From Longimicrobiales bacterium (lineage in GTDB: Bacteria; Gemmatimonadota; Gemmatimonadetes; Longimicrobiales; Gaopeijiaceae): DNA of 64,000 nucleotides. Below are positions 1 to 63,841 of this stretch, piece by piece. Positions within the stretch are counted from its first letter, which is position 1, and each line of letters begins with the position of its first letter. The DNA lies in contig OY282361.1 of assembly GCA_958295645.1 (NCBI GenBank), forward strand, positions 1,516,501-1,580,500, in the 5' to 3' direction. Under the pieces are notes generated by a model. It searched no databases. It was not told where the DNA came from and worked only from the letters and a program-made list of their open reading frames with translations. A program made the translations under genes and the position numbers.

Positions 1-458
1 TCCGTTCCGGGTTGCGGAGCGGGACGGGTCCCGGGCAGGTCATGGGGTACGTCAAGACGCACCACCGCCGGACGCTCGCCGTGGAGCAGTGGCGGCAGGT
101 GCCGAAGCTGGAGACCGGCCAGCGAACCAGCTTGTTCGCGATGCCGGTGGGCCTGTACGCCTGCTACCTTCGCATGGGCGAGTCCGGGCCTTGGGCGGGT
201 GGATGGGCAGGCGTCGCCCGGCTCGAAGTCCCACAGGACGCCGGGCTGGAAGCGGCGGCGGCCGCCGTGGGCCGAGCCGCTGCTTGGCTGCCGGCCTTCG
301 CCGCGGCCCTGCACCGGAACCCGCGCGCGCCCGTCAACTTGACGCCGGTGGCCGGACTGGAGCGTCGGTTGCGGCACTTGCTGGGCAACCCGCGTCTGGC
401 GGTCCGGGCGGTCCGCGAGGCGGTCATGGACCTCAACCGCAAAGAACAAGCAGGATGA
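1..458 (+). CDS. nurA: NurA-like nuclease, C-terminal part (gene cut by window edge)
   Basis: The reading frame is open to the left edge, so only about 150 C-terminal residues are present. Near the visible start is GYVKTHHRR, a segment typical of bacterial NurA-domain proteins, and toward the end is NPRAPVNLTPVAGLERRL followed by a predicted helical tail, also typical of that family. NurA is a nuclease that works with the HerA translocase on DNA ends. The stop codon overlaps the ATG of the next gene (ATGA), as expected for a translationally coupled nurA-herA pair. The catalytic N-terminal half lies outside the window, so catalytic competence cannot be judged. Confidence 0.75.
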   Translation, partial: RSGLRSGTGPGQVMGYVKTHHRRTLAVEQWRQVPKLETGQRTSLFAMPVGLYACYLRMGESGPWAGGWAGVARLEVPQDAGLEAAAAAVGRAAAWLPAFAAALHRNPRAPVNLTPVAGLERRLRHLLGNPRLAVRAVREAVMDLNRKEQAG

Positions 459-2275
459 GCGAAGGCCAAGCACGCATCGGGCTCGTCGACGGTTCCACCG
501 ACAGCGACTCGCGGCGTTTCTTCCTGGTGCTGGAGGCCGACGCGCTGGTCCAGCTCGACGAGCTCGTCACGGTGACGACGCCATTGCCCGGAGGGGAGCA
601 AGTCACCCACTACGGCATCGTCACCGAGATCACGTCGCGCCTCGAGGGGGCCGACTTCCCCTCCGACACGACCCGCTTCGCAGACCGGACGTTGCCCGCA
701 GAGCACGTGCGCCGGGCCGAAGTTCGCGTGTTGCGGGTCGTGCCGGAACTGTTCGTGTCGCCGCACGCGGGCACTCCTGCCCATCGCGCCCACGGCGACC
801 ATCGCAAGCGCGCGCTCTTCGAAGACGAGATGACGCGCGGAATGCTGCCCGTGGGGCTGGATACGGGAGGTGCGCCGGTTCATGCCGACATGCGGTTCGT
901 GGACGGTCGCGCGGGCGGCCACGTGTCCATCTCCGGCATCTCCGGCGTTGCGACGAAGACCTCCTACGCCCTCTTCCTTCTCTACCAGCTGCTGGAGACT
1001 AAGCGGGGCATGGAGTTGCTGGGCGGGCGGGCCGGCCGTGAGAGCGTGCGCGCGCTCGTGTTCAACACGAAGGGCGAGGACCTGCTTCACGTGGACCGGC
1101 CGAACTCCGAGTTCGACGCCAAGCCGGACGCCCGCCGTCAGTGGAGTGAGCTGGGCGTCGAGGAGCCGGGGCCGTTCAAGTCCGTGCGCTTGTACGCCCC
1201 CCGCCAGACCGAATCGGTTGGGACGGCCGTGCCCGCGGTCAAGTCGCGCGACACCGGCGACGTCAACGCCTACGGCTGGACGCCCGAGCAGTTCGTGCGC
1301 GAGCAGCTTCTGCAGTTCTGCTTCACGTCGGCCGACGAGCGCTCCACGCAAGTGGGCTTCGTGGAACAGCAGTTTCGCATCCAGCTGCTACGCCAGTTGC
1401 GGCGGCTGCAGGGCGACGAAACCGGCGCGATCGTGATCGCCGAAGCCATCGCGCCCGACATCGGCTTCAACCCGGACCGGCTGGCCATGCGCGAACCGCC
1501 GGAGGCCGCCGCGGGCGAGGGCCACGTGATCCGCGACTTCGGCGACTTCGTGGACTTCGCGGAATCGCTGGCGTCACGAGACGACGAAGAGGCCGCTCGC
1601 TGGTTCGGCCGCACCCAGGCCGGCACGCGCCAAGCCTTCCTCCGCCGCGTCCTGCGGCTGCGCCGCCACGTCGGCCCGCTCGTGGCCTGCGGCCTAGCGC
1701 CCGTCTCCGACGAAAACGCCAAGTTGCACGTCGTGGACATCTCCACCCTCCACGACGACGCCCAGCGCTTCGTGGTGGGGGCGCTCCTGGACCGCGTGTG
1801 GCGCGAGAAACAAGGCACCGGACGCCTGCCGCTCCGATTCGTCGTGCTGGACGAACTCAACAAGTACGCGCCCGCCGCCGGCTACTCGCCCCTCAAAGAC
1901 CTTCTCGTGGACATCGCCGAGCGCGGCCGCTCGCTGGGCGTGCTGCTGATCGGCGCCCAGCAGGCGGCCTCCGCCGTCGCCCAGGCCCTGCCCCGCAACG
2001 CGTCGCTGAAGGTCGCCGGCCGCCTGGACGCGGGCGAATCCGACGCCTACCGCTTCCTCACGCCGTCCATGCGCGAGCGCGCCTCTCGTTTCATGCCCGG
2101 CACGATGGTGGTCTCCCAGCCGATCGTGCCCGAGCCGGTTCCCGTGCGGTTCCCGTTCCCGCCGTTCGCGACGAACCCCGACGAGGCGCAAGCGGACAAG
2201 GAGGCGGAGGAGCGACGGGTCGGGGGGATCATGAACAACCTGAAGGCAACGGGGGGACAGGACCCGGGGTTGTGA
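455..2275 (+). CDS. herA: HerA-like DNA translocase ATPase
   Basis: A 606-residue protein of the HerA/FtsK-like ATPase superfamily, which pumps DNA through a hexameric ring to a partner nuclease. A HAS-barrel-like N-terminal region (about residues 1-110) is followed by a P-loop in GISGVATKTS around residues 161-170; Lys-Thr are kept, although the loop is not the textbook GxxxxGK[ST]. Walker B is VVLDELNKYAP at about 463-473, and a downstream GVLLIGAQQA segment resembles sensor motifs of this family. The ATG at 455 is favoured because it overlaps the nurA stop by ATGA; a longer upstream reading of the same frame has no family similarity. It is coupled to nurA and points toward sbcDC. Confidence 0.85.
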   Translation: MSEGQARIGLVDGSTDSDSRRFFLVLEADALVQLDELVTVTTPLPGGEQVTHYGIVTEITSRLEGADFPSDTTRFADRTLPAEHVRRAEVRVLRVVPELFVSPHAGTPAHRAHGDHRKRALFEDEMTRGMLPVGLDTGGAPVHADMRFVDGRAGGHVSISGISGVATKTSYALFLLYQLLETKRGMELLGGRAGRESVRALVFNTKGEDLLHVDRPNSEFDAKPDARRQWSELGVEEPGPFKSVRLYAPRQTESVGTAVPAVKSRDTGDVNAYGWTPEQFVREQLLQFCFTSADERSTQVGFVEQQFRIQLLRQLRRLQGDETGAIVIAEAIAPDIGFNPDRLAMREPPEAAAGEGHVIRDFGDFVDFAESLASRDDEEAARWFGRTQAGTRQAFLRRVLRLRRHVGPLVACGLAPVSDENAKLHVVDISTLHDDAQRFVVGALLDRVWREKQGTGRLPLRFVVLDELNKYAPAAGYSPLKDLLVDIAERGRSLGVLLIGAQQAASAVAQALPRNASLKVAGRLDAGESDAYRFLTPSMRERASRFMPGTMVVSQPIVPEPVPVRFPFPPFATNPDEAQADKEAEERRVGGIMNNLKATGGQDPGL

Positions 2276-2420
2276 GGGGGCGGAGGGTTGGTTGCGACGC
2301 CGCGTCCTCGCGACCACGGGCATCGTCGCCGAACAGAGGCGGGCTTGGTTCGTCGGCCAATCACAAGGACCGCCGCAACCCGGCCCGGCTCCCGGGGTCC
2401 GGCGTTGCTTGCCCTTACCA

Positions 2421-2495
2421 GTCAAGAAATCAAGTCCTTGTCTGGAAACGACTTACGAGAATTCGAAGCCCAATTGCGAACTTCGAGTCAAGAAA
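2421..2495 (+). repeat. 66-bp direct repeat, left copy
   Basis: Starts with GTCAAGAAA at 2421 and is followed by a second GTCAAGAAA at 2487, exactly 66 bp later. The interior aligns without gaps to a second copy at 3767-3841; by hand, 46 of 66 columns agree, with the strongest block around GACTTACG(A/G)GAATTCGA. The same 66-bp spacing is kept in both copies. The pair brackets the decayed ATPase gene between herA and sbcD, as expected for element ends or a duplicated target, though no transposase is visible. Confidence 0.65.
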
Positions 2496-2564
2496 CCACT
2501 TGGTCGCCACCATCGCCCGCCCAACCCAGCCCATGACAGCATGGTAGCGGTGGGCGGGCACATC

Positions 2565-3525
2565 CTACGGCGAAGGCTCCCTCGACACCGCCCAGAAGGG
2601 CATGTAATGGCGCGCCCGCACGCCGTTTTCCGGGTTCGCGACGACAATCAGCCCAGCATCGACCGCCTCTCGGAGGACGCGAGAGATCATGGACGCGTTC
2701 TTGCCGAGGACGCCCAGCCGGTCCCGCAACGAGCTGTTGGTCATCCGGCGACCCGTCACGAACTGGAGGCAGGCGTGAAGGTAGCACGCCCGAAGCCGTT
2801 CCTGTCTGTCCATCTGCGCCAAGGTCTTGCGGTCGAAGAGAAAGACCCGCGTGAAGCCGGGCGGCACGTCGAAGCGAGGCGGGGGGAGCTGATGACGCTC
2901 GATTTCTTCGACCACCTTGTCGATGCCGCTACCGCGTTCCTGATTTCCAGACGATCTTCAAATACCTCCACCATCGGCGCAGCCCCGGTCGCCGCGAAGT
3001 CCTGGTGAATCAGGGCATTGGCCAGCAACTCCCGCACCGCACCTTCGGGAAACGACGGCATCGACTTGCGCAACGCTCCAACTATTTCTTCGTATGCGGG
3101 AAGGCGTGCGGTCACGTAGTCGAGGAATCCGGTGAAGCCCGACGCGTATCCCTCGACGAACTCGCGTTCCGTCAGAGCGTGGAGGCGATCCGTGCCTCGA
3201 TAGAAGATCACCCTCAGAGCCTTTCGCCGAAGTCTCGGAAAGTCTCCTAGATCCTTCGCAAACAGTATTGCACCCAAGTTCGTTATGTCGAATCCCCCGG
3301 AGAGGCTTCGTGCAACCAAGTGATCTCGGGTCAATGTCGATGATGGCATCGGCGCCATCGGCCGGCGGCACGCGCAGCAAGTCAAAGTACTTGGGATAGT
3401 CGAGCAGCTTCAGAACATCAGCAGCAAGGACTCGCTCCAAGGCGACCTCCTGCTCGAACGATACGCGGTCGAACAGCCGCCACAGCGCCCGCTCCTTCTC
3501 GGGATACTCCTTCAGCTTCCCGGAC
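2565..3525 (-). pseudogene. Decayed AlbA_2-type ATP-binding protein
   Basis: Three pieces of one protein are spread over two reading frames. The first (about 3525-3330) carries KLKEYPEKERALWRLFDR and LLDYPKYFDLL; the second (about 3330-2945) carries ITNLGAILFAKDL, ALRKSMPSFPEGAVRELLANALIHQDF and an EVFEDRLEI segment; the third (about 2950-2565) begins ERGSGIDKVVEEIE and ends in a winged-helix-like region. This order is that of AlbA_2/HATPase_c_4 ATP-binding proteins, often annotated as putative transcriptional regulators. The roughly 110-residue AlbA_2 domain at the N-terminus is missing. About 30 residues normally lying between the LEITNPG-like strand and ERGSGID are also missing, because LEIRN runs directly into the ERGSGID coding sequence. 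It cannot make a full product. Confidence 0.8.
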
Positions 3526-3897
3526 GACCTCGTGGAAGGCAAGTCTATGCGCTGTATCGGTTTGTCACGCCGGCATCCTCTCTACGCCGCAGTGGCGCTC
3601 TCCATCCGATTGCGGACGGGCGCCGAGTCGGGGGTCGGGCTCGCGATCAGAATACGTCGGCGTTCCTTGGGCTCGCAAGACGATCCCCGCCATCACGACC
3701 CCATGCCAGGAGTCGGTGCGCGCCGTGGGCTGGCAAGCAACTTTCGGGGCTCCCGATCAAGAACCCGTCAAGAAACCAACTTGCTGCCAGACAAAGACTT
3801 ACGGGAATTCGAGGCCGATTCGTCGGCTTCCAGTCAAGAAAACTGGGGCCGTGGCGGTCGTTGGTGTCCGTCGTGCCGTCTCTCTAGATTCCCGCCC
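3526..3897. other. Gap between pseudogene and sbcD
   Basis: About 370 bp with no convincing gene. Its right part holds the second copy of the 66-bp direct repeat. The left part has no recognisable protein in any frame; it could be remnant sequence of whatever carried the ATPase gene in. No clear sigma-70 promoter or ribosome binding site for sbcD was seen. Confidence 0.5.
3767..3841 (+). repeat. 66-bp direct repeat, right copy
   Basis: GTCAAGAAA at 3767 and again at 3833, 66 bp apart as in the left copy at 2421-2495. The interior shares AAAGACTTACGGGAATTCGA and the trailing CTTC(C/G)A with the left copy. Both copies have the same orientation and lie about 1.35 kb apart. The copy ends 56 bp before the sbcD start. 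Confidence 0.65.
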
Positions 3898-5175
3898 ATG
3901 ATCCTCCTCCACACGGCCGACTGGCACCTGGGCGCTCGGCTGGGCCGCCACGACCGCATGGCCGACCAGCGCGAAGCCCTGCACGGCCTGCTGGAGGTCG
4001 CGCAGGACGTGCGGCCCGACCTGATCGTCCACGCGGGCGACCTCTTCGACGCCTTCCGGCCGCCGTACGATGCCATGCGGCTGGGCGTGCGGGCGCTGAA
4101 CCGCCTGACGGAGATCGCGCCGACGCTGGTCGTTCGCGGCAACCACGACTCGCGCGAGCTCTTCCAGGTGATCAACGAGCTGGCCGGAGCGGGGGCCGGC
4201 GACTCCAGCCGGTTGCGGCTGATCGTGGACCCGCAGGTCGTGCCGTACCGGGAGATCGCGAGCCACGCCGTAGCCGTGGCCTGTGTGCCGTTCATCCCAC
4301 CCGGGACGATCGCGGACTACGCTGCCGACGAGCACGGGCGCTTCGAGGGCAACTACGCCGACGGCATCCGAAGCGTGAACCACCGGCTGCTCGACGAGGC
4401 GGAGAGGCGGACCGGACCCGAGGGCATCGTCCTCTACGCCGCCCATCTGCATCTTCACGGCGCCAAGCCGGGCAACTCGGAGCGGCGGCTCACCGTCGGC
4501 GAGGACTACGCCGCTCACCCCGAGGGGCTGCAACGGGCTCTCTACTGCGCCTTCGGACACATCCACGACCCGCAGCTCCTTCCCGGCGGGGCCGCCAGGG
4601 GACGCTATGCGGGCTCGCTCGTGCCGCTGGACTTCGGCGAGGCCACGCAGGCCAAGGAAGCCGTGGTGGTCCGAATCGACGACGACGGCGTCCAGGTCCA
4701 GGCCCGGCCTCTTCCCGCCACCGGCAGGCCCTTGCGCCAGTTCTCGGGCGCTCTGGACGAGCTGGAGGCCGAGGCCCGGGACGGCGGACTGGACGGCGTG
4801 ATCCTCAAGGCCCGCGTCGTGTCGGACGATCCGATCCCGCACTTGGCCGACCAGCTGGCGGAGTGGTCGCCCGGGTGCACGCTCTTCAACGTGGTCAACG
4901 AGGTCGCGAATCGTCGCGCGAAGCCGATTTCGGACGACGAGGGCGACGTCGGACCGGAGCCGGAGATGGAGGACTTGTTCATGGAGTGGCGGGCCTCGGC
5001 GGCGACGGCGGGCCAGCGCACCGCGGCGGACGAGGCCGTGCGCGCCCTCTTTGCGCAGGCGATCGGAACCGTCGGCCAGGACACGCAGTCCGACTTGGGC
5101 GCCGCGACCCTGGCGACGCGCGCGGCAGAATCTCTGAAGTCGCTGGCGGCCAAGCGGCGCACCGCGCGGGACTGA
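3898..5175 (+). CDS. sbcD: Exonuclease subunit SbcD (Mre11 family)
   Basis: A 425-residue calcineurin-like phosphoesterase, the nuclease subunit of the SbcCD (bacterial Mre11-Rad50) complex that trims DNA ends and hairpins. The metal-binding motifs are in order: HTADWHLG (Asp8, His10), GDLFD, RGNHDS, AAHLHLHG and GHIHDP. The ATG at 3898 puts ILLHTADWHLG at the N-terminus as usual for the family; a longer open frame upstream runs through the repeat and has no similarity. The C-terminal region (beyond about residue 290) is the expected capping and SbcC-binding part. sbcC starts 6 bp after the stop. Confidence 0.93.
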   Translation: MILLHTADWHLGARLGRHDRMADQREALHGLLEVAQDVRPDLIVHAGDLFDAFRPPYDAMRLGVRALNRLTEIAPTLVVRGNHDSRELFQVINELAGAGAGDSSRLRLIVDPQVVPYREIASHAVAVACVPFIPPGTIADYAADEHGRFEGNYADGIRSVNHRLLDEAERRTGPEGIVLYAAHLHLHGAKPGNSERRLTVGEDYAAHPEGLQRALYCAFGHIHDPQLLPGGAARGRYAGSLVPLDFGEATQAKEAVVVRIDDDGVQVQARPLPATGRPLRQFSGALDELEAEARDGGLDGVILKARVVSDDPIPHLADQLAEWSPGCTLFNVVNEVANRRAKPISDDEGDVGPEPEMEDLFMEWRASAATAGQRTAADEAVRALFAQAIGTVGQDTQSDLGAATLATRAAESLKSLAAKRRTARD

Positions 5176-5181
5176 GCGTCG

Positions 5182-8100
5182 ATGCGTCCACTGTCGCTTC
5201 GCATCGAAGGGTTCCGGTCGTTTCGGGCGCAGGCCGAGATCGACTTTGGCGACCGGGACCACGTCGCCGTCGTGGGCGACACCGGGGCCGGCAAGTCCTC
5301 GATCCTGGAGGCGATGACCTACGCCCTCTACGGCAAGACCAGCTTCGCGGGGAAGGCCGTCCAGGAGCTGATGAACGACACGTCCGACAAGACGCGGGTC
5401 GTGCTTCGGTTTCGCGTCTCGGGGCAGGAATGGGAGGTCGCTAGAGCGCTGCGACGCGACGGCAAGGGGGTGGTCAAGCTCGCCGGAGCTCAGCTGCGGC
5501 GCTTGGGCGAAGACGGCGTGGCGGTGGAGCACGTGGAGCAGGTTCGACAGATCGACGAGCGGGTCGAGAAGCTGATCGGACTCGACAGCGAAGCCTTCCT
5601 CCGCGCGGTCGTCCTGCCGCAGGGCCGCTTCGCCAGACTGCTGGTCGAGGACAAGCCCGCCACCCGAGGCATCGTGCTGCGCCAAATCTGGCCGACCGAG
5701 GACTTGGAGGCGGTGGGCGCACTGGCTTCGCGTGCGTTGCGGGACGTCGAGCAGGTTCGGGCACAGCTCGAGCAGGAGAAGAACGCGCACCCGGAGGACC
5801 CGGTGGCGCACTTGGCCGAGCTGACGGCAAAGGCGGAGTCGGCCGACCGGCGAGCGGAGGAGGCTTCGGCGCTGGCGCAGGAGGCTGCGGAGGCGCTGGT
5901 CGCGATGCGGGAGGCGGCAACGCAAGAACAAGCGGCAACGGAGGCGGGCGCTCGGCTGGCGCCGGGACTGTCGCGGATCGACGAGGCGGAAACGGAGGTC
6001 GCGCCCATTGCGGAGGCCGTGCGCGGCATCGACGAGGCCGACGGCACGCTCAAGCGGAAGCAGGCGGACGTCCGCGGACAGTTGGCGGACCTTCCGTCGG
6101 GCGACGGCCCGGGACTCAAGGAAGTCGCGGCGGCGCTGGCCGCGTTGCAGGGCTTCGGCGACTTGGCGGCCGTCGCCGTCGAGGCTGCCGGCGAGCTGCG
6201 CGACAAGACGGCCGGGGCCGCGAGACGGCGCAAGGGGGCTACGGAGGCCAAGGACGCTCATCGGAAGGCGGCTGAAGGGGTGGGGCGTCATGCCCGACTT
6301 CTACCGCCGCTTGCCAAGGCGGCCGCCGACGCCCGCGACCGCCGGGCGGAGGCCGGGCATGCACACAACCGGTGCACCGAGCTGCATCAGGCAGTCACGG
6401 AGGCGCAGGCGAAGGTCGCGTCGCTGGGCGACCGGCGGGCCGAACGGGCGGCCCAGGTCGAGTCCGCCGCCAAGGAGCGAGCGCAGGCAGCGGAAGCGGC
6501 CGCAACGGCCGAGCACCAGCTGGCCGACGCTCGACGAGCCAACTCCGCAGCAGCGGCCGCCCACGGTCTGCACCCCGGAGACGACTGCCCCGTCTGCCGA
6601 CGCGATCTCCCGGAGGGCTGGTCGCCGCCTCCGGACGCAGGAATCGCCGACACGCAAGCGGTTGCCGAGAAGGCCGGAAGCGCGGCCCAAGCGTCGGCCC
6701 AGCGGGCGACCCGAGTTCGCGCCGAGCTGCAGGCCGCCGAAGCGCATCTCGACGAGGCGCAGGCCGCTGCGAAGCGTGCCCTCGACCAGCGCCAAGCGGC
6801 CCTGGCGACGATGATCAAGCAGTTCGGCGACGGCTCCACCGAACTCCTTGCCCATGGGGCGCCCGCCGACGCCGGCCGACCACCGCCGCCGCTTCCCTCG
6901 CTGGATGCCCTGCGCCGCCCCTTGGACGCATCCTTCCAGAAGGCGTCGGACGCGCTGACCCGCCACGACGAAGAGCACAAGGCCCTGGGCGACGACCTTG
7001 AGCGCCTGTCCAACGCCGCCGCGAAGGCCGAAGCCGAAGCGACCACAGGCGCTGAACGGACGGCCGACGCCCGCCGGACGGCCCACTCCGCCCTCGCCCG
7101 CCTGAACCAGAACATGAGCGAGACACCGTCGCCCTACCGGCCCCAAGTGGAACTCCCAGCGGAGCCGGCCGAGCTGCACGAGATCGACGCGTCGGCGGCC
7201 GACGGCCCCATCGCGGCTGCCCGGGACCGAGAGCGCATCTTGGACAGCCGGGAGCGGCGCCGGCAACAGTTGAATCGGGAACTTGAAGAGGCCAACAAGG
7301 AGCGCGAAGGCCTTGCGCAACGCCGGATCGAAGTCGAACGACCCCTGGCCGCAATCAAAGCGACGCTTGGCCACCACCGCGACGCCGTGCTCCGCGCCTT
7401 CGACGCCCTGACCCTCGGCGACGCCCTCCGATCCGGCGCCGACATCCCGGGCGCGCCTTCCACCAAGGACCCATCCGCGCTCCAGCAGTGGATGCGGCGG
7501 TTGCGCACGAAGACGTCGACCGCCGTCGAAGCCGCAAGCGCCCAGGCGAAGCGGGCAACCGCCGAGGCGCGAGTCGCCAAGGACGCTTTGGGCAAAGTGG
7601 GCCGCCGTCTAGTCGCCCAGCTTTCCACCGACGACGACGACGCGATCGACGCCAAGGCCCCCGCGGCCCCGAGCGCTCCCGAAGCCGTCGTGGACACAGC
7701 CGGCAAGGCCCGGGACGAGGCCAAGTATCTCGCCCGCACCGCCGGCGGCGCACGCGACGCCTTCGCGGCGATCAAGGACGACGTGCTGACCCTCCACGCC
7801 CTCCTCGACGAAGCGGACGAGCTGGAGCGCGCCTTGACCGACCTGGAGAGGGCTCTGAAGCCGGGCGCCTTCCTCAAGTGGCTGACGTTGCGACGCTCCC
7901 GGAGCCTGCTGGTCCACGCCTCTCGGGTGCTCAGCGAGATCAGCGACGGCAAGTACGCGTTCGCGGACCCCGGCGACGAAGAAGCGCGGTGGATGGTTGT
8001 GGACGAGGAGTCCGGCCAGCCCCGGTCGCCCGCGAGCCTGTCGGGAGGCGAGCAGTTCATCGCTTCGCTGGCGCTGGCCCTGGGGATGGTCGAGATGATG

Positions 8101-8397
8101 GCCCGCTCCGGCGGACGCCTGGAGTCGCTCTTCCTGGACGAGGGGTTCGGCTCGCTGGACCGCAGCAACCTGGACGCCGCCGTCGAGGCGCTGGGGACGG
8201 TGGCCGCGAAGGGACGCATGGTGGGCGTCATCTCCCACGTACGGGCCGTGGCCGAACAGATCGACGACGTGCTGGCGGTCGAGCGCGGGGTCACCGGCAG
8301 TCGGGTTCGCTGGCTGTCGCGGGAAGAGCGCGGCGAGATGGCGCGTCTCGACGCCGGCGGAGATGCCTCGGCCGCGATGGGAGGACTGCTGGAGTAG
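5182..8397 (+). CDS. sbcC: Exonuclease subunit SbcC (Rad50 family SMC ATPase)
   Basis: A 1071-residue SMC-type ATPase. Walker A is GDTGAGKSS at residues 32-40. Two very long Ala/Glu/Arg-rich coiled-coil arms flank a zinc hook, CPVC at residues 469-472, through which two SbcC molecules join. The C-terminal lobe carries the signature SLSGGEQFIASLALALG and Walker B LESLFLDEGFGSLD. With SbcD it forms the ATP-gated nuclease acting on DNA ends and hairpins. It sits 6 bp after sbcD, so the two are certainly cotranscribed. Nothing is missing; the length matches SbcC proteins of high-GC bacteria. Confidence 0.94.
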   Translation: MRPLSLRIEGFRSFRAQAEIDFGDRDHVAVVGDTGAGKSSILEAMTYALYGKTSFAGKAVQELMNDTSDKTRVVLRFRVSGQEWEVARALRRDGKGVVKLAGAQLRRLGEDGVAVEHVEQVRQIDERVEKLIGLDSEAFLRAVVLPQGRFARLLVEDKPATRGIVLRQIWPTEDLEAVGALASRALRDVEQVRAQLEQEKNAHPEDPVAHLAELTAKAESADRRAEEASALAQEAAEALVAMREAATQEQAATEAGARLAPGLSRIDEAETEVAPIAEAVRGIDEADGTLKRKQADVRGQLADLPSGDGPGLKEVAAALAALQGFGDLAAVAVEAAGELRDKTAGAARRRKGATEAKDAHRKAAEGVGRHARLLPPLAKAAADARDRRAEAGHAHNRCTELHQAVTEAQAKVASLGDRRAERAAQVESAAKERAQAAEAAATAEHQLADARRANSAAAAAHGLHPGDDCPVCRRDLPEGWSPPPDAGIADTQAVAEKAGSAAQASAQRATRVRAELQAAEAHLDEAQAAAKRALDQRQAALATMIKQFGDGSTELLAHGAPADAGRPPPPLPSLDALRRPLDASFQKASDALTRHDEEHKALGDDLERLSNAAAKAEAEATTGAERTADARRTAHSALARLNQNMSETPSPYRPQVELPAEPAELHEIDASAADGPIAAARDRERILDSRERRRQQLNRELEEANKEREGLAQRRIEVERPLAAIKATLGHHRDAVLRAFDALTLGDALRSGADIPGAPSTKDPSALQQWMRRLRTKTSTAVEAASAQAKRATAEARVAKDALGKVGRRLVAQLSTDDDDAIDAKAPAAPSAPEAVVDTAGKARDEAKYLARTAGGARDAFAAIKDDVLTLHALLDEADELERALTDLERALKPGAFLKWLTLRRSRSLLVHASRVLSEISDGKYAFADPGDEEARWMVVDEESGQPRSPASLSGGEQFIASLALALGMVEMMARSGGRLESLFLDEGFGSLDRSNLDAAVEALGTVAAKGRMVGVISHVRAVAEQIDDVLAVERGVTGSRVRWLSREERGEMARLDAGGDASAAMGGLLE

Positions 8398-26710: not shown

Positions 26711-29700
26711 TTGACGAGAGACGGCGACTGGGCGGCGGCGCGGGCGCGCGACTTGTTCGGCGGGGCCCCCCGGCGGTTGCCGGGCGAGTTGGACTTCAAC
26801 TTCCGCGTGGAAGGGCCGTGCGGCCCGGCGGTCTTGAAGCTTGCACCGGCCGGGCGACGGCCCGCGTTCGCACTCTTGGCGGCGTGCCTGGAACACCTGC
26901 GCGGCGCGGCGCTGCGGGCGCGAGTGCCGGCTCTCGTTTCCATCGACGCTCTCGCAGGGGGCCCGCGGGACGCTTCGGGCCCCGAAGTCGGCACCTTGAG
27001 CAACCCCGGCGGCGCTCCTCCCCGCATATCCGGCGACGCCCCGTGGGTTGCGCTGGCTGCCACGTTCGTGGAAGGCGAGACGCTGGCCGTCGCGCGCCCG
27101 CGTCCCATGAGCGTCCTCGAAGAGCTGGGCGCTCTCCTTGCTCAGCTCCAAGCCGCGCTGGACGACTTCGAGCACCCCAGTCTGGACCGCGACTTCCCCT
27201 GGCGCCTGGAATCGGCGCCCGCCCTCGTCCGGGAACGTCTGCGCGAACTCGATCCCCCTCTCGCCAAGGTCGTCGCCGAAACCGCGGACCGGGCCGCCCG
27301 CCGCCTCGATGCGGTTGCGGATCAGCTTCCCGCCGGCATCGTCCACAACGACGCCAACGACCACAACGTGATCGTCGCCGCCTCGCCGGAAGGGCTCCGC
27401 CTCGCCGGCCTGATCGACTTCGGCGACCTGGCGCGCGGCTGGAGGGTCGCCGACCCCGCGATAGCCGCCGCCTACGCCATGATGGACTTGGCCGACCCCC
27501 TCGAAGCGGCCTGCGCCGTCGCGGGCGGCTACGCGTCGGTCGCTTCCCTCTCCGACGCGGAGTGCCGGGCGTTCCTGCCCCTGGCCGCGCTCCGGCTGTG
27601 CCTGTCGGTCTGCATTCAGGCCCGCCAGATGCGCGAGCAACCCGGCAACGAGTACTTGGCGGTCAGCCAGCGGCCCGCCCGCAAGCTGCTTCGGCGGCTC
27701 GCGGAGTCCGACTGGCGCCTGGCCGAATTCAGAGTCCGCGACGCCTGCGGCCTCGTCCCCAATCCCAGCGCGAACGCCGTCGTTTCCTGGATGAGGGAAG
27801 CCGCACCCCGATCCCCCGTCCTGCCCCGCGACCGCCTCGCCACGCCGACCGTCCTCGACCTGTCCGTCGCGAGCCTGGACCTGCCGCATCCCGAGGATCT
27901 CGCCCGGGAAGGCGCCTTGGAGGCATGGATCGCAGAAGAAATGGCCGCCTGCGGCGCCACCGCCGGAGTGGGTCGCTACGGCGAGCCCCGGCTGCTCTAC
28001 GACGCCCCTTCGTTCGCGACCGAAGGCAACGACGGCCCCGGCGCGCGCACCGTGCACATGGGGCTCGACTTGTTCGCCCCTCCGGGCACGCCTGTCCGTT
28101 CGCCGCTGCCCGGCACGGTGGTCTCGGTGGCCGACAACGCCGGGCGGCTCGACTACGGCCCCACCGTGGTGGTGCGCCACGCGACCGGTTGCGGAACCCT
28201 CTTCCACACGCTGTACGGGCACTTGAGCGCGGCCTCCCTGGCGAAGCGCTCCCCCGGCGAGAAGGTACGCGCGGGCGGCGTGCTGGGCTGGCTGGGAACG
28301 CCGAAGACGAACGGCGGCTGGCCTCCGCACCTGCACTTCCAGGTGATCGCGCTGGACTCGCTCGAGGACGAGCGGCGCGGCGCCGACGAGCGGGCGGGCG
28401 ACACGTGCGCCGCCGACAGGCCGACGGACGACGAGCGGGCGGGCGACACGCGCGCCGACGACAGCCGTCTGGACGACGAGCGAGCAGGCGACGGCGACTT
28501 CCCCGGAGTCGTGGAGGCCCGGCTCCGGCGCGTTTGGGAGTCGGTGCTGCCCGATCCCGCGCCGCTCGCCGGGCTGCCTTCGCCTTTCGCGGAATCGTTG
28601 CGGCCCGTGCCCGCTCCCGGCGAGGCGGCCGCCCGGATCAAGGCAGGCCGCGACCGTCGTTTGGCTCCATCCCTCGGTCTCTCGTACGACCGCCCCTTGC
28701 ACGTCGTCCGCGGCCTCGCGCAACACCTGTTCGACGCTTCCGGGCGGCGTTATCTGGACGTCGTGAACAACGTGGCGCACGTCGGGCACGCCAACCGGCG
28801 GGTCGCCCGCGCCATCGCACGCCAGTCCCGCGTGCTCAACACCAACACCCGCTACCTGCACGAGGAGATCGTGGCGCTCTCGGAGGAACTCGCGGCCCGC
28901 TTCCCGCCCGGACTGGACGTGGTCTTCCTGGTCTGTTCCGGGAGCGAGGCCAACGAGCTGGCGCTGCGCTTGGCCCGCCACTACACGCGACGCGAGGGCG
29001 TGGTCGTGCTGGAGGGAGCCTACCACGGCAACACTGGAGGGCTCGTCGAGATCAGCCCCTACAAGTTCGACGGCCCCGGCGGCGGCGGACGAAGCGCGCG
29101 CGTGGCGGTGGCGCCGATGCCCGATCCGTACCGGGGACTGCACCGGCGCACCGAGGGCCTAGGCGACGCGGAGCTGGCCCGGTCGTACGCGGCAGGGGTC
29201 CGAGAAGCCGCCGAGCGCTTGAGCGGCGCAGGCGGGACCGCCCGGGGCCGGAGCCGCGCGGGCGTGGACGTGGGCGGCACAAGCCGCGGCAGTGCGGGCG
29301 CGGCTCGCGAGGACGCGGACAACGCAGAGGTAGGCGTGGCCGCGTTCGTCGCCGAAGCCATGCTGGGATGCGGCGGCCAAGTCGAGCCCCCGGCGGGATA
29401 TCTCCGGGCCGCCTTCGAACATGTGCGCCGGGTCGGCGGACTCTGCATCGCAGACGAAGTGCAGACCGGCTTCGGGCGCGTCGGAGACGCCTTCTGGGCC
29501 TTCGAGCTCCAAGAGGCGACGCCGGACATCGTCACGCTGGGCAAGCCCATGGGGAACGGCCATCCCGTCGGCGCCGTCGTGACGACCCGCGAGATCGCCG
29601 ACGCCTTCGCCAACGGCATGGAGTACTTCAACACGTTCGGCGGCAACCCCGTGGCCTGCGTGGCGGCGCGGGCGGCGCTGGCCGAAGTCCGCGACCGGGG

Positions 29701-30058
29701 GCTGCAGGAGCACGCCAAGCAGGTCGGCGATTTCTTCCTGGCGCAGCTCCGGGAACTGGAGAGCCCGGCCGTGGGCGACGTGCGGGGCCGGGGACTGTTC
29801 CTGGGCGTCGAGCTGGTGCGGAGCCGCGAGGGACGCGAGCCCTTCCCCAAGGCCTGCCGCTACGTGGTGAACCGGATGCGCGACCGCGGCATCCTCATGA
29901 GCACCGACGGCCCCGACGCCAACGTGCTCAAGATCAAGCCGCCCATGGTGTTCGAGCGCTCCGACGCCGCCCGCGTCGTCGAGGAGCTGGACGCGATCCT
30001 GCAAGAGACGCCGGTCTTGGCCAAACCGAGCCGACCGATTCGGGCATCTGCAGGCTGA
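26711..30058 (+). CDS. Three-domain fusion: APH kinase, M23 peptidase, class III aminotransferase
   Basis: An 1115-residue protein from a TTG start at 26711. Residues about 1-340 are an aminoglycoside-phosphotransferase-like kinase with HNDANDHN (His212, Asp214) and LIDFGD (Asp236). Residues about 430-560 are a LytM/M23 fold with all zinc ligands, His449-x3-Asp453 and His540-x-His542. Residues about 640-1115 are a class III PLP aminotransferase with [25 protein letters not shown] and Lys945 in LGKPMGNG. The same order occurs in a known family related to ethanolamine-phosphate phospho-lyase (AGXT2L1), so phosphorylation followed by PLP chemistry on an amino-alcohol is plausible. Acidic DERAGD repeats (about residues 555-595) and a Gly/Arg insert (about 840-870) are low-complexity additions. 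Confidence 0.88.
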
Positions 30059-62167: not shown

Positions 62168-63841
62168 TTAGGAGCGCCCCTCCCCCAAGAGCGCCCGCGC
62201 ATGGTCGCGCGAGGGCGCGGATTCAGGATCGCCGCCCAACATGCGGGCGATCTCGCGCACGCGGTCGCCGCCGCGGACACGGCGGACGGAGGTGGCGGCA
62301 GTGCGCCGACAGGCGTCCTTCTCCACCACCAGATGGCAGGAAGCGCGGGCGGCGATGCGCGCGAGGTGGGTGACGACGACGGTTTGCCGTCCCTCGGCCA
62401 CGGCCCGCAGCTGGCCGGCCACGCGATTGGCCACGGCTCCGCCGACCCCCGCGTCGATCTCGTCGAAGACCAGGGTCGGCAGGTCGTCGGCGCCGGCGAG
62501 CACCGACTTGAGAGCCAGCATCACCCTGGACAGCTCGCCGCCCGAGGCGATGTGGGCCAGCGGACCCAGCGGAAAGCCCGGGTTCATGGTAGCCATGAAG
62601 CGGATGCGCTCCCGGCCGTGGGCCGAGGGCGGGTCCAACGCCTCCAACTGCACCGAGAAACGGCCGCCTTCCAGCCCCAATCCGGGGAACAAGGCTTCGG
62701 TGCCTGCGGAAATCCGTTTCGCGGCATCGCGGCGGCGCAACGTCAGTCGATCGGCCGCATCGAGCCATGAAGCCTCCGCCTCGGCCAAGCGGCGGCGCAT
62801 CTCGCGCAGATCCATCCCGGAGGCGTCCAATTCGTTCAGTTCGCGCTCCAGCGCCCGCCCTCTGGCGACGACCTCCTCGACGGAGCCGCCGTACTTCCGC
62901 TTGAGCGCCTGGAGCGCGGCTTGGCGTTCGCGCAGGCGGTCCAGCCGTGCCGGATCGTGATCGACGGCGGCCGCGTAGCTCGCGAGTTCGGAGGCCACGT
63001 CCGCCACGCGGTGGTAGGCTTCCTGGATGGCTCCGGCCAACTCCGACAGGTCCGGATCGGCCTCCGCAAGTCGGTCCAGCCGTTTCTTGGCCGTCGCCAG
63101 CTGGTCGGTCGCGGCGTCGTCTCCGCCGTGCAGGGCTTCGTGGAGGGCTTCGGTCTCGGCGGCCAGGACTTCGGCATTGGCGAGGCGCGCCTCCGCGGCC
63201 TTGAGTTGGGCTTCCTCGCCGACTCGAAGCTCGGCCGCCCGGATCTCGTCCAGGTCTCGTCGAGCCGCCGCGGCGCGGGCCTCCAGCTTGCGGTTGCGCA
63301 CCTCCTTCTCCGCCAGCGCGGCCTTGAGCGCCCCGACCTCGCGAAACAACGCTTCGACCTCCTGCGCCAAGCCGGCCGAATCCCCGTAGGCGTCCAGCAC
63401 CTCTCGCTGGAACCCGGTCGAGAGCAGGCGCTGGTGGTCGTGCTGGCCGTGCAGGTCGACGAGAACCTGGCCGATGCTCCGCAGGTTGCCCGCGGTGGCG
63501 AGGGACCCGTTGATCCAGGCCCGGCTCCGGCCCTCGCTGCGCACCTCGCGGCGGAGAACGACCTGTCCGTCGTCGGTCTCGAAGCCCATGTCGTCCAGTC
63601 GCCGCACCGCCGCCGGAACTTTGCGAACGTCGGCCACGCCCTCGACGAGCGCCCGGTCCTTTCCGCTACGCACCGTCCCGGCGGAGGCTCTCCCGCCCAC
63701 GAGCAGGGCCAGAGCGCGCACGATCACCGACTTGCCCGCTCCCGTTTCGCCGGTAATGGCGTTGAGCCCCGGCGAGAGCGGGATCGTCAGCTCTTCGAGG
63801 ACGGCGAAGTGGCGGATTCGGAGGTCGACCAGCATGGCCAC
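62168..63841 (-). CDS. recN: DNA repair protein RecN
   Basis: A 557-residue SMC-like ATPase that helps hold and repair double-strand breaks. The N-terminal lobe has ITGETGAGKSVIVRALALLV (Walker A GETGAGKS), a family segment LVDLHGQHDHQRLL, and two coiled-coil stretches (about residues 165-345). The C-terminal lobe has ASGGELSRVMLALKSVLA, Walker B LVFDEIDAGVGG and VTHLARIAA. Length is that of full RecN. A second ATG two codons downstream may be the real start. The upstream neighbour is probably nadK, a common pairing. Confidence 0.94.
   Translation of the reverse strand: MAMLVDLRIRHFAVLEELTIPLSPGLNAITGETGAGKSVIVRALALLVGGRASAGTVRSGKDRALVEGVADVRKVPAAVRRLDDMGFETDDGQVVLRREVRSEGRSRAWINGSLATAGNLRSIGQVLVDLHGQHDHQRLLSTGFQREVLDAYGDSAGLAQEVEALFREVGALKAALAEKEVRNRKLEARAAAARRDLDEIRAAELRVGEEAQLKAAEARLANAEVLAAETEALHEALHGGDDAATDQLATAKKRLDRLAEADPDLSELAGAIQEAYHRVADVASELASYAAAVDHDPARLDRLRERQAALQALKRKYGGSVEEVVARGRALERELNELDASGMDLREMRRRLAEAEASWLDAADRLTLRRRDAAKRISAGTEALFPGLGLEGGRFSVQLEALDPPSAHGRERIRFMATMNPGFPLGPLAHIASGGELSRVMLALKSVLAGADDLPTLVFDEIDAGVGGAVANRVAGQLRAVAEGRQTVVVTHLARIAARASCHLVVEKDACRRTAATSVRRVRGGDRVREIARMLGGDPESAPSRDHARALLGEGRS

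Follow-up and report, generated by a model that had tools for sequence, protein, structure and literature searches.

Linkage, co-inheritance and block exchange of nurA, herA, sbcD and sbcC in Gemmatimonadota suggest a bacterial DNA-end-resection module

The 64 000-nucleotide stretch analysed here (the window; G000:C1:1516501-1580500) comes from a 2.89-Mb, single-contig Gemmatimonadota genome whose nearest relatives are Gemmatimonadota metagenome-assembled genomes (MAGs), many of them apparently sponge-associated judging by their names. It opens with nurA, herA, sbcD and sbcC, in that order on the plus strand, with herA and sbcD parted by a 1.6-kb insert that holds a decayed gene (table 1). A first-pass annotation had read the four genes as an archaeal-style end-resection cluster that was once a single operon. 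Its account of the locus was borne out: the genes share one strand and the order given, the herA ATG overlaps the nurA TGA (ATGA), the insert contains a decayed gene with flanking repeats, and recN lies further along the window. The catalytic motifs of all four genes are intact, and sbcD and sbcC are 6 bp apart. We present comparative evidence that the four genes form a unit of inheritance and exchange in bacteria, which probably serves DNA-end resection.

Table 1. Features at the locus; positions are those of the window unless another coordinate is given.
Feature	Position	Strand	Remarks
nurA, 3' part	3-458	+	gene truncated by the window start; last 456 bases inside
nurA, whole gene	L001:9559-10458 = G000:C1:1516059-1516958	+	predicted RNase H-fold 5'-3' nuclease
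herA	455-2275	+	606 aa; hexameric FtsK/HerA-family DNA translocase by homology
Secondary insert	2276-3897		parts herA from sbcD
Left direct repeat of insert	2417-2495	+	79 nt; repeat search
Decayed gene in insert	2565-3542	-	frame-broken
Right direct repeat of insert	3763-3841	+	repeat search
sbcD	3898-5175	+	425 aa; Mre11-type nuclease by homology
sbcC	5182-8397	+	1071 aa; Rad50-type SMC ATPase by homology; CPVC zinc hook
recN	62168-63841	-	476 bits

HerA is a full-length homologue of Deinococcus radiodurans HerA (7f6d_B; phmmer E=2.9e-106), and its Walker A (GISGVATKT) and Walker B (DE) motifs are invariant or nearly so across 49 homologues (in the trimmed alignment K161 and D459/E460 are found in 49/49 and T162 in 48/49). 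NurA matches the nuclease of the Deinococcus HerA-NurA complex (drNurA, 7f6d_H; phmmer E=1.1e-16) and scores 22.1 bits against the Pfam NurA model, whose cut-off is 21; among 47 homologues its catalytic acids D73, E167 and D184 are conserved in 45, 46 and 47, respectively. The gene is divergent enough that a whole-genome search with the Pfam NurA model missed it at E<=0.001. The nurA frame is open from L001:9385, and within L001:9385-9558 it aligns to the profile for some 40-58 residues ahead of the first listed ATG; translation may begin further upstream, in which case the annotated gene would be too short. SbcD exceeds the cut-off of TIGR00619 (121.7 bits), and its D/H/GNHD/GHxH residues are invariant or nearly so in 50 homologues that include E. 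coli SbcD. SbcC matches TIGR00618 (E=3.2e-61, 207 bits) but falls short of its 478-bit cut-off; it exceeds the cut-offs of Pfam AAA_23 and SbcC_Walker_B, with the P-loop, the CPVC (CxxC) zinc hook and Walker B all present. The SbcD motifs, the split SbcC ATPase with its hook and the adjacency of the two genes are consistent with a predicted SbcC-SbcD complex, as are the Walker residues, the NurA acids and the adjacency to herA with a NurA-HerA complex of the bacterial type. The unit is easily overlooked: DUF87, the Pfam model for the HerA domain, does not detect the window HerA, and public labels read 'ATP-binding protein', 'hypothetical protein' or 'SMC family ATPase'.

Loci for comparison were sampled by searching genome contigs for HerA only, which yielded 31 loci, and searches of the phylum and class added more; the regions around HerA were fetched and then scanned with profiles of the four proteins. 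As the loci were fetched by HerA alone, linkage was not selected for. Gemmatimonadota HerA proteins fall into type A (the window), type B (approx. 42% identical to A) and type C (approx. 30%). Among 98 distinct HerA loci with 4 kb or more of sequence after herA, sbcD follows on the same strand in 90 (within 450 bp in 65 and within 2.1 kb in 83) and nurA is present in 87, counts obtained with profiles built partly from the counted loci, with type-C regions picked on long contigs and with many genomes that are MAGs. The four genes are adjacent on one strand and this arrangement is kept across relatives, so that the two pairs lie together rather than far apart, and linkage on this scale rejects chance adjacency. 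Types A and C and most Vicinamibacteria have the order nurA-herA-sbcD-sbcC; Gemmatimonadota type B, Nitriliruptoria and two actinomycete records have herA-sbcD-sbcC-nurA. Linked loci span Gemmatimonadota, Acidobacteriota, Actinomycetota, Pseudomonadota and one spirochaete MAG, together with plasmids of Cyanobacteriota, Chloroflexota and actinomycetes. All six plasmid HerA records in PLSDB carry the four-gene unit (Nonomuraea, Streptomyces, Sphaerospermopsis, Chlorohelix, Nostoc and Aulosira), and four of these records are themselves annotated, independently of the profiles used here, with sbcD or SbcCD subunit D as the next gene. One HerA-carrying plasmid is typed conjugative. Phage carriage of a window-type HerA was also considered and yielded just two partial, distant matches.

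In about 20 related loci the four genes are uninterrupted and abutting, and in most relatives, which lack the insert, the gap between the herA and sbcD profile matches is approximately 84-100 bp. The insert is secondary and most relatives have none, so the gap in the window splits one operon rather than separating two ancestral ones. Its minus-strand gene is broken over three frames and bracketed by 79-bp direct repeats that are 73% identical; a whole-genome search at up to 2 mismatches found just these two copies of the repeat core, which leaves a dispersed element unsupported. The decayed gene was judged by eye to be of AlbA_2/Schlafen-like type, with a weak hint of HATPase_c_4/RecG-C, and it aligns with an intact 397-aa protein (28% identity over approx. 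198 aa, tblastn 57.8 bits) encoded in an insert of the closest relative (G160; L074/L049). There, 17.4 kb separate herA and sbcD in a different insert, with flanks collinear with the window, that carries Druantia type III DruH-DruE (DruE 2125 bits), a methyltransferase, a TonB-receptor-like gene and the gene for the AlbA_2-like protein. Insertions recur at the herA-sbcD junction: in other type-A relatives it holds 1-10 kb with Fic, DUF4143 ATPase or GmrSD-type genes, or a DUF4268 gene lies between sbcD and sbcC. No tRNA integration site was found in 13 loci. Between herA and sbcD, several type-C Gemmatimonadota have a gene for a protein of about 275 aa whose start resembles a signal peptide (L058:9854-10678, L064:7782-8609 and L069:9998-10852); the L058 protein has no NCBIfam match.

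The HerA and SbcD trees, built from 49 loci with no archaeal sequences, are congruent (patristic r=0.97), with 25 of 46 splits common to both. Congruence extends to comparisons within types A, B and C, where Mantel r is 0.945, 0.90 and 0.93, respectively (each p=0.0002). E. coli SbcD has a long branch and an uncertain place among the operon-linked SbcDs. Gene order and the matching histories of HerA and SbcD together support, in this lineage, the proposal of a single ancestral operon. Within the window's family, a strong SbcD match was found in 20/20 sampled genomes with a type-A or type-B HerA and in 2/22 without HerA; weak partial SbcD matches in the HerA-less genomes may be other phosphoesterases. 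SbcD without any HerA match was seen in two genomes of the same family, at L075 (G095:C7) and G150:C262, and G095, whose SbcD-SbcC is of type A, has probably lost nurA-herA.

The operon also behaves as a unit in genus g2, in which all 18 sampled genomes carry exactly one HerA, of type A in 11 and of type B in seven (the HerA types being 42% identical). Loci L004 (A) and L035 (B) occupy the same site, with 88.6% nucleotide identity over 8 kb upstream and 89.2% over 650 bp downstream, and between these flanks just 385 bp of herA align (67%). Flank identity ends at the operon edges: the replaced block comprises the four genes, give or take about 100 bp. The L004 flanks are 86.6-89.1% identical to those of type-B L035, compared with 78.6-80.9% to those of type-A L013 and L030. 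The same pattern recurs at another site between L005 (A) and L036 (B), with the operon there flipped with respect to the shared flanks. Downstream of the operon in L032 (A), flank identity is 85-91% to type-B genomes of one genus as against 75-78% to other type-A genomes. Comparison of these flanks indicates at least three type exchanges at orthologous sites, that of L032 being seen at its downstream boundary only. L030 (A) and L037 (B) each lie on a chromosome assembled as a single contig, and this speaks against assembly errors. Exchange of the whole operon at fixed sites is a strong comparative argument for joint function of the four products. Single genes can also move, as shown by a hybrid operon in which a type-A-like NurA (L041:9845-10942, minus strand; 54.8% identical to that of the window) stands ahead of type-B herA-sbcD-sbcC. 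A fragment resembling the last 75 or so residues of HerA (L007:13511-13780 = G138:C73:17719-17940; 65% identical) lies approximately 1.7 kb after an intact herA and is possibly the scar of an earlier operon exchange.

The repair-gene content of the window genome was judged by family searches. It includes an AddB-like (PDDEXK_1) and AddA/RecB-like pair at G000:C1 approx. 206.3-213.3 kb (L073:7342-14303), both proteins being divergent and far under the NCBIfam equivalog cut-offs. The presence of this pair rejects the idea that the unit has replaced AddAB in this genome. A strong match to PDDEXK_1 (AddAB/RecB) accompanies type A in 13/13 cases, type B in 16/16 and type C in 25/130, and the phylum-wide inverse association between HerA and PDDEXK_1 (Fisher p=3e-10, uncorrected for kinship) is due to type C only. 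PDDEXK_1 is thus mostly missing in type C, where the unit may serve as the main resection enzyme, and present in types A and B, where the unit may be a second one.

Taking the gene set, its intact motifs, the linkage across phyla, the congruent histories and the four-gene exchange together, we propose that nurA-herA-sbcD-sbcC makes up a DNA-end-resection module of bacteria, passed on as one unit by both inheritance and transfer, a reading to which we assign a probability of roughly three in four. SbcC-SbcD would bind, tether and trim the DNA end, including hairpinned or protein-blocked ends, to leave an open end. The HerA hexamer would then be loaded at this open end and pump duplex DNA into the NurA dimer, which would digest the 5' strand to provide a 3' tail for RecA. 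The module would work beside an AddAB-like enzyme in types A and B, the window included, and would be the likely main resection enzyme in most type-C Gemmatimonadota. Overlaps and short gaps in relatives suggest co-transcription there. We infer that the genes are co-transcribed, that SbcD contacts HerA in bacteria, that the steps follow the order outlined above and that the four products cooperate physically as a machine. Of the bacterial-type pairs, only that of D. radiodurans has been shown to resect ends, which it does by translocation-coupled digestion of the 5' strand (PMC9960219). Sulfolobus cannot do without any of the four genes and requires 5'-3' resection by HerA-NurA (PMC4351679), and archaeal Mre11 binds HerA (PMC2288612). 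The bacterial unit has the same parts as these published systems with intact motifs, and resection by SbcCD with HerA-NurA is therefore the best-supported mechanism. Break repair is the likelier role; defence is possible because defence genes adjoin or sit inside several copies of the unit.

Several observations weigh against the resection module. An AddAB-like enzyme always coexists in types A and B, and the module reading does not explain why a second resection enzyme would be required there; the 1.6-kb insert makes co-transcription in the window genome doubtful. Eight of the 98 loci have no sbcD nearby (exceptions to linkage include L053, L066, L072, L117, L119 and L123), and nurA can be displaced in position and, in the L041 hybrid, in type. 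The herA-nurA pair is separate from sbcDC in Deinococcus and Thermus, whose mutants show weak or opposite phenotypes (PMC4663267, PMC13140390). This separation, also described in the Thermus study (PMC5448004), and the splitting of the unit by inserts in several genomes could be taken to mean that adjacency is chance or positional hitchhiking and that HerA-NurA and SbcCD act separately, as assumed for Thermus. We find this barely credible, as linkage in 90/98 loci over divergent HerA types and several phyla, congruent trees and four-gene exchange strongly disfavour it. It is very improbable, too, that the unit serves DNA transfer rather than break repair, with HerA pumping DNA in natural competence or in conjugation-like export. 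Transformation and transjugation are impaired in Thermus hepA mutants (PMC5448004), but Thermus HepA is unlinked to sbcDC, the NurA and SbcCD nucleases fit degradation and resection better, and an unsystematic reading of the loci recognised no genes for competence or conjugation next to the operon.

The four genes could conceivably be an anti-phage or anti-plasmid cassette, in which SbcCD and HerA-NurA destroy linear or unusual foreign DNA instead of preparing host breaks. Cassette-like exchange at fixed sites, once with inversion, and carriage on plasmids, one of them typed conjugative, are in keeping with this, as is the company that the unit keeps: TIGR02680/TIGR02678/DUF2397 genes, which we take to be Wadjet-like, on a Streptomyces sp. 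BB1-1-1 plasmid (L080), TIR and Swt1-HEPN genes on a Chlorohelix plasmid (L082), and Druantia type III genes, a methyltransferase and other PADLOC-listed families inserted within the operon in relatives. These neighbours were noted without a background rate for comparison. Exactly one copy in every g2 genome fits a needed function better than patchy defence, and the presence of the unit without an AddAB-type nuclease in most type-C genomes fits housekeeping resection. Known HerA anti-phage systems (ATPase-nuclease, PMC11291478; PADLOC HerA) likewise combine a HerA-family ATPase with a nuclease, whereas the partners here are NurA, SbcD and SbcC; no PADLOC model matches the window NurA or SbcD, and HerA is matched weakly (mad8 50 bits, HerA model 18.8 bits). 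SbcC gives generic SMC matches in PADLOC, the best being mad3 (99.6 bits). On this evidence we consider a dedicated defence cassette unlikely. We are doubtful, though less dismissive, of a reading in which the unit is a mobile end-processing cassette selected for allele exchange at fixed chromosomal sites; the probable cause would be action against phage or plasmid DNA, or targeting by phage inhibitors, such that one copy is kept and a change of type pays.

The resection module that we favour has clear counterparts among known systems. The archaeal herA-mre11-rad50-nurA operon of Sulfolobus, Pyrococcus and relatives brings the same four functions into one cluster (PMC4351679, PMC2288612), and the type-B order herA-sbcD-sbcC-nurA agrees with the published listing of the Sulfolobus operon genes (PMC4351679). 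The bacterial units differ in having SbcD/SbcC-type proteins and Deinococcus-type HerA and NurA, in most of them placing nurA first, overlapping or abutting herA, and in occurring beside AddAB (types A and B), on plasmids and as swapped cassettes. The label 'archaeal-style' suits the gene set rather than implying recent descent: bacterial SbcD models score far above archaeal Mre11 models for the window SbcD, the only strong structure match of HerA by sequence is to Deinococcus, and recent transfer of an archaeal operon is unsupported. The NurA-HerA (HepA) pair of Deinococcus and Thermus shares the Walker A motif GISGVATKT and a homologous NurA (PMC9960219, PMC5448004); that pair stands without sbcDC, while the unit in the window includes it. 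The same four-gene arrangement, nurA-hepA with sbcD-sbcC downstream, was published in 2017 for Oceanithermus profundus, where it is presented as SbcCD recruitment in one organism (PMC5448004), in contrast to the multi-phylum, co-inherited and mobile unit described here. We found no report of the wider bacterial pattern in the open-access literature, which omits most subscription papers. The parts, their archaeal grouping and one bacterial case (Oceanithermus profundus) are already known; the breadth, co-inheritance and whole-unit exchange in bacteria are new.

Elsewhere in the window, positions 26711-30058 (plus strand) encode a 1115-aa protein with an aminotransferase C-terminal part, which matches the PRK06148 multidomain family (E=2.5e-294) below its cut-off.

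Work on bacterial HerA-NurA has been confined almost entirely to Deinococcus and Thermus, and a link of SbcCD to Deinococcus HerA-NurA was left open (PMC4663267). If the four-gene unit is the usual arrangement in many other bacteria, the Deinococcus and Thermus models would be exceptions, and the question of cooperation with SbcCD would become directly testable in culturable carriers.

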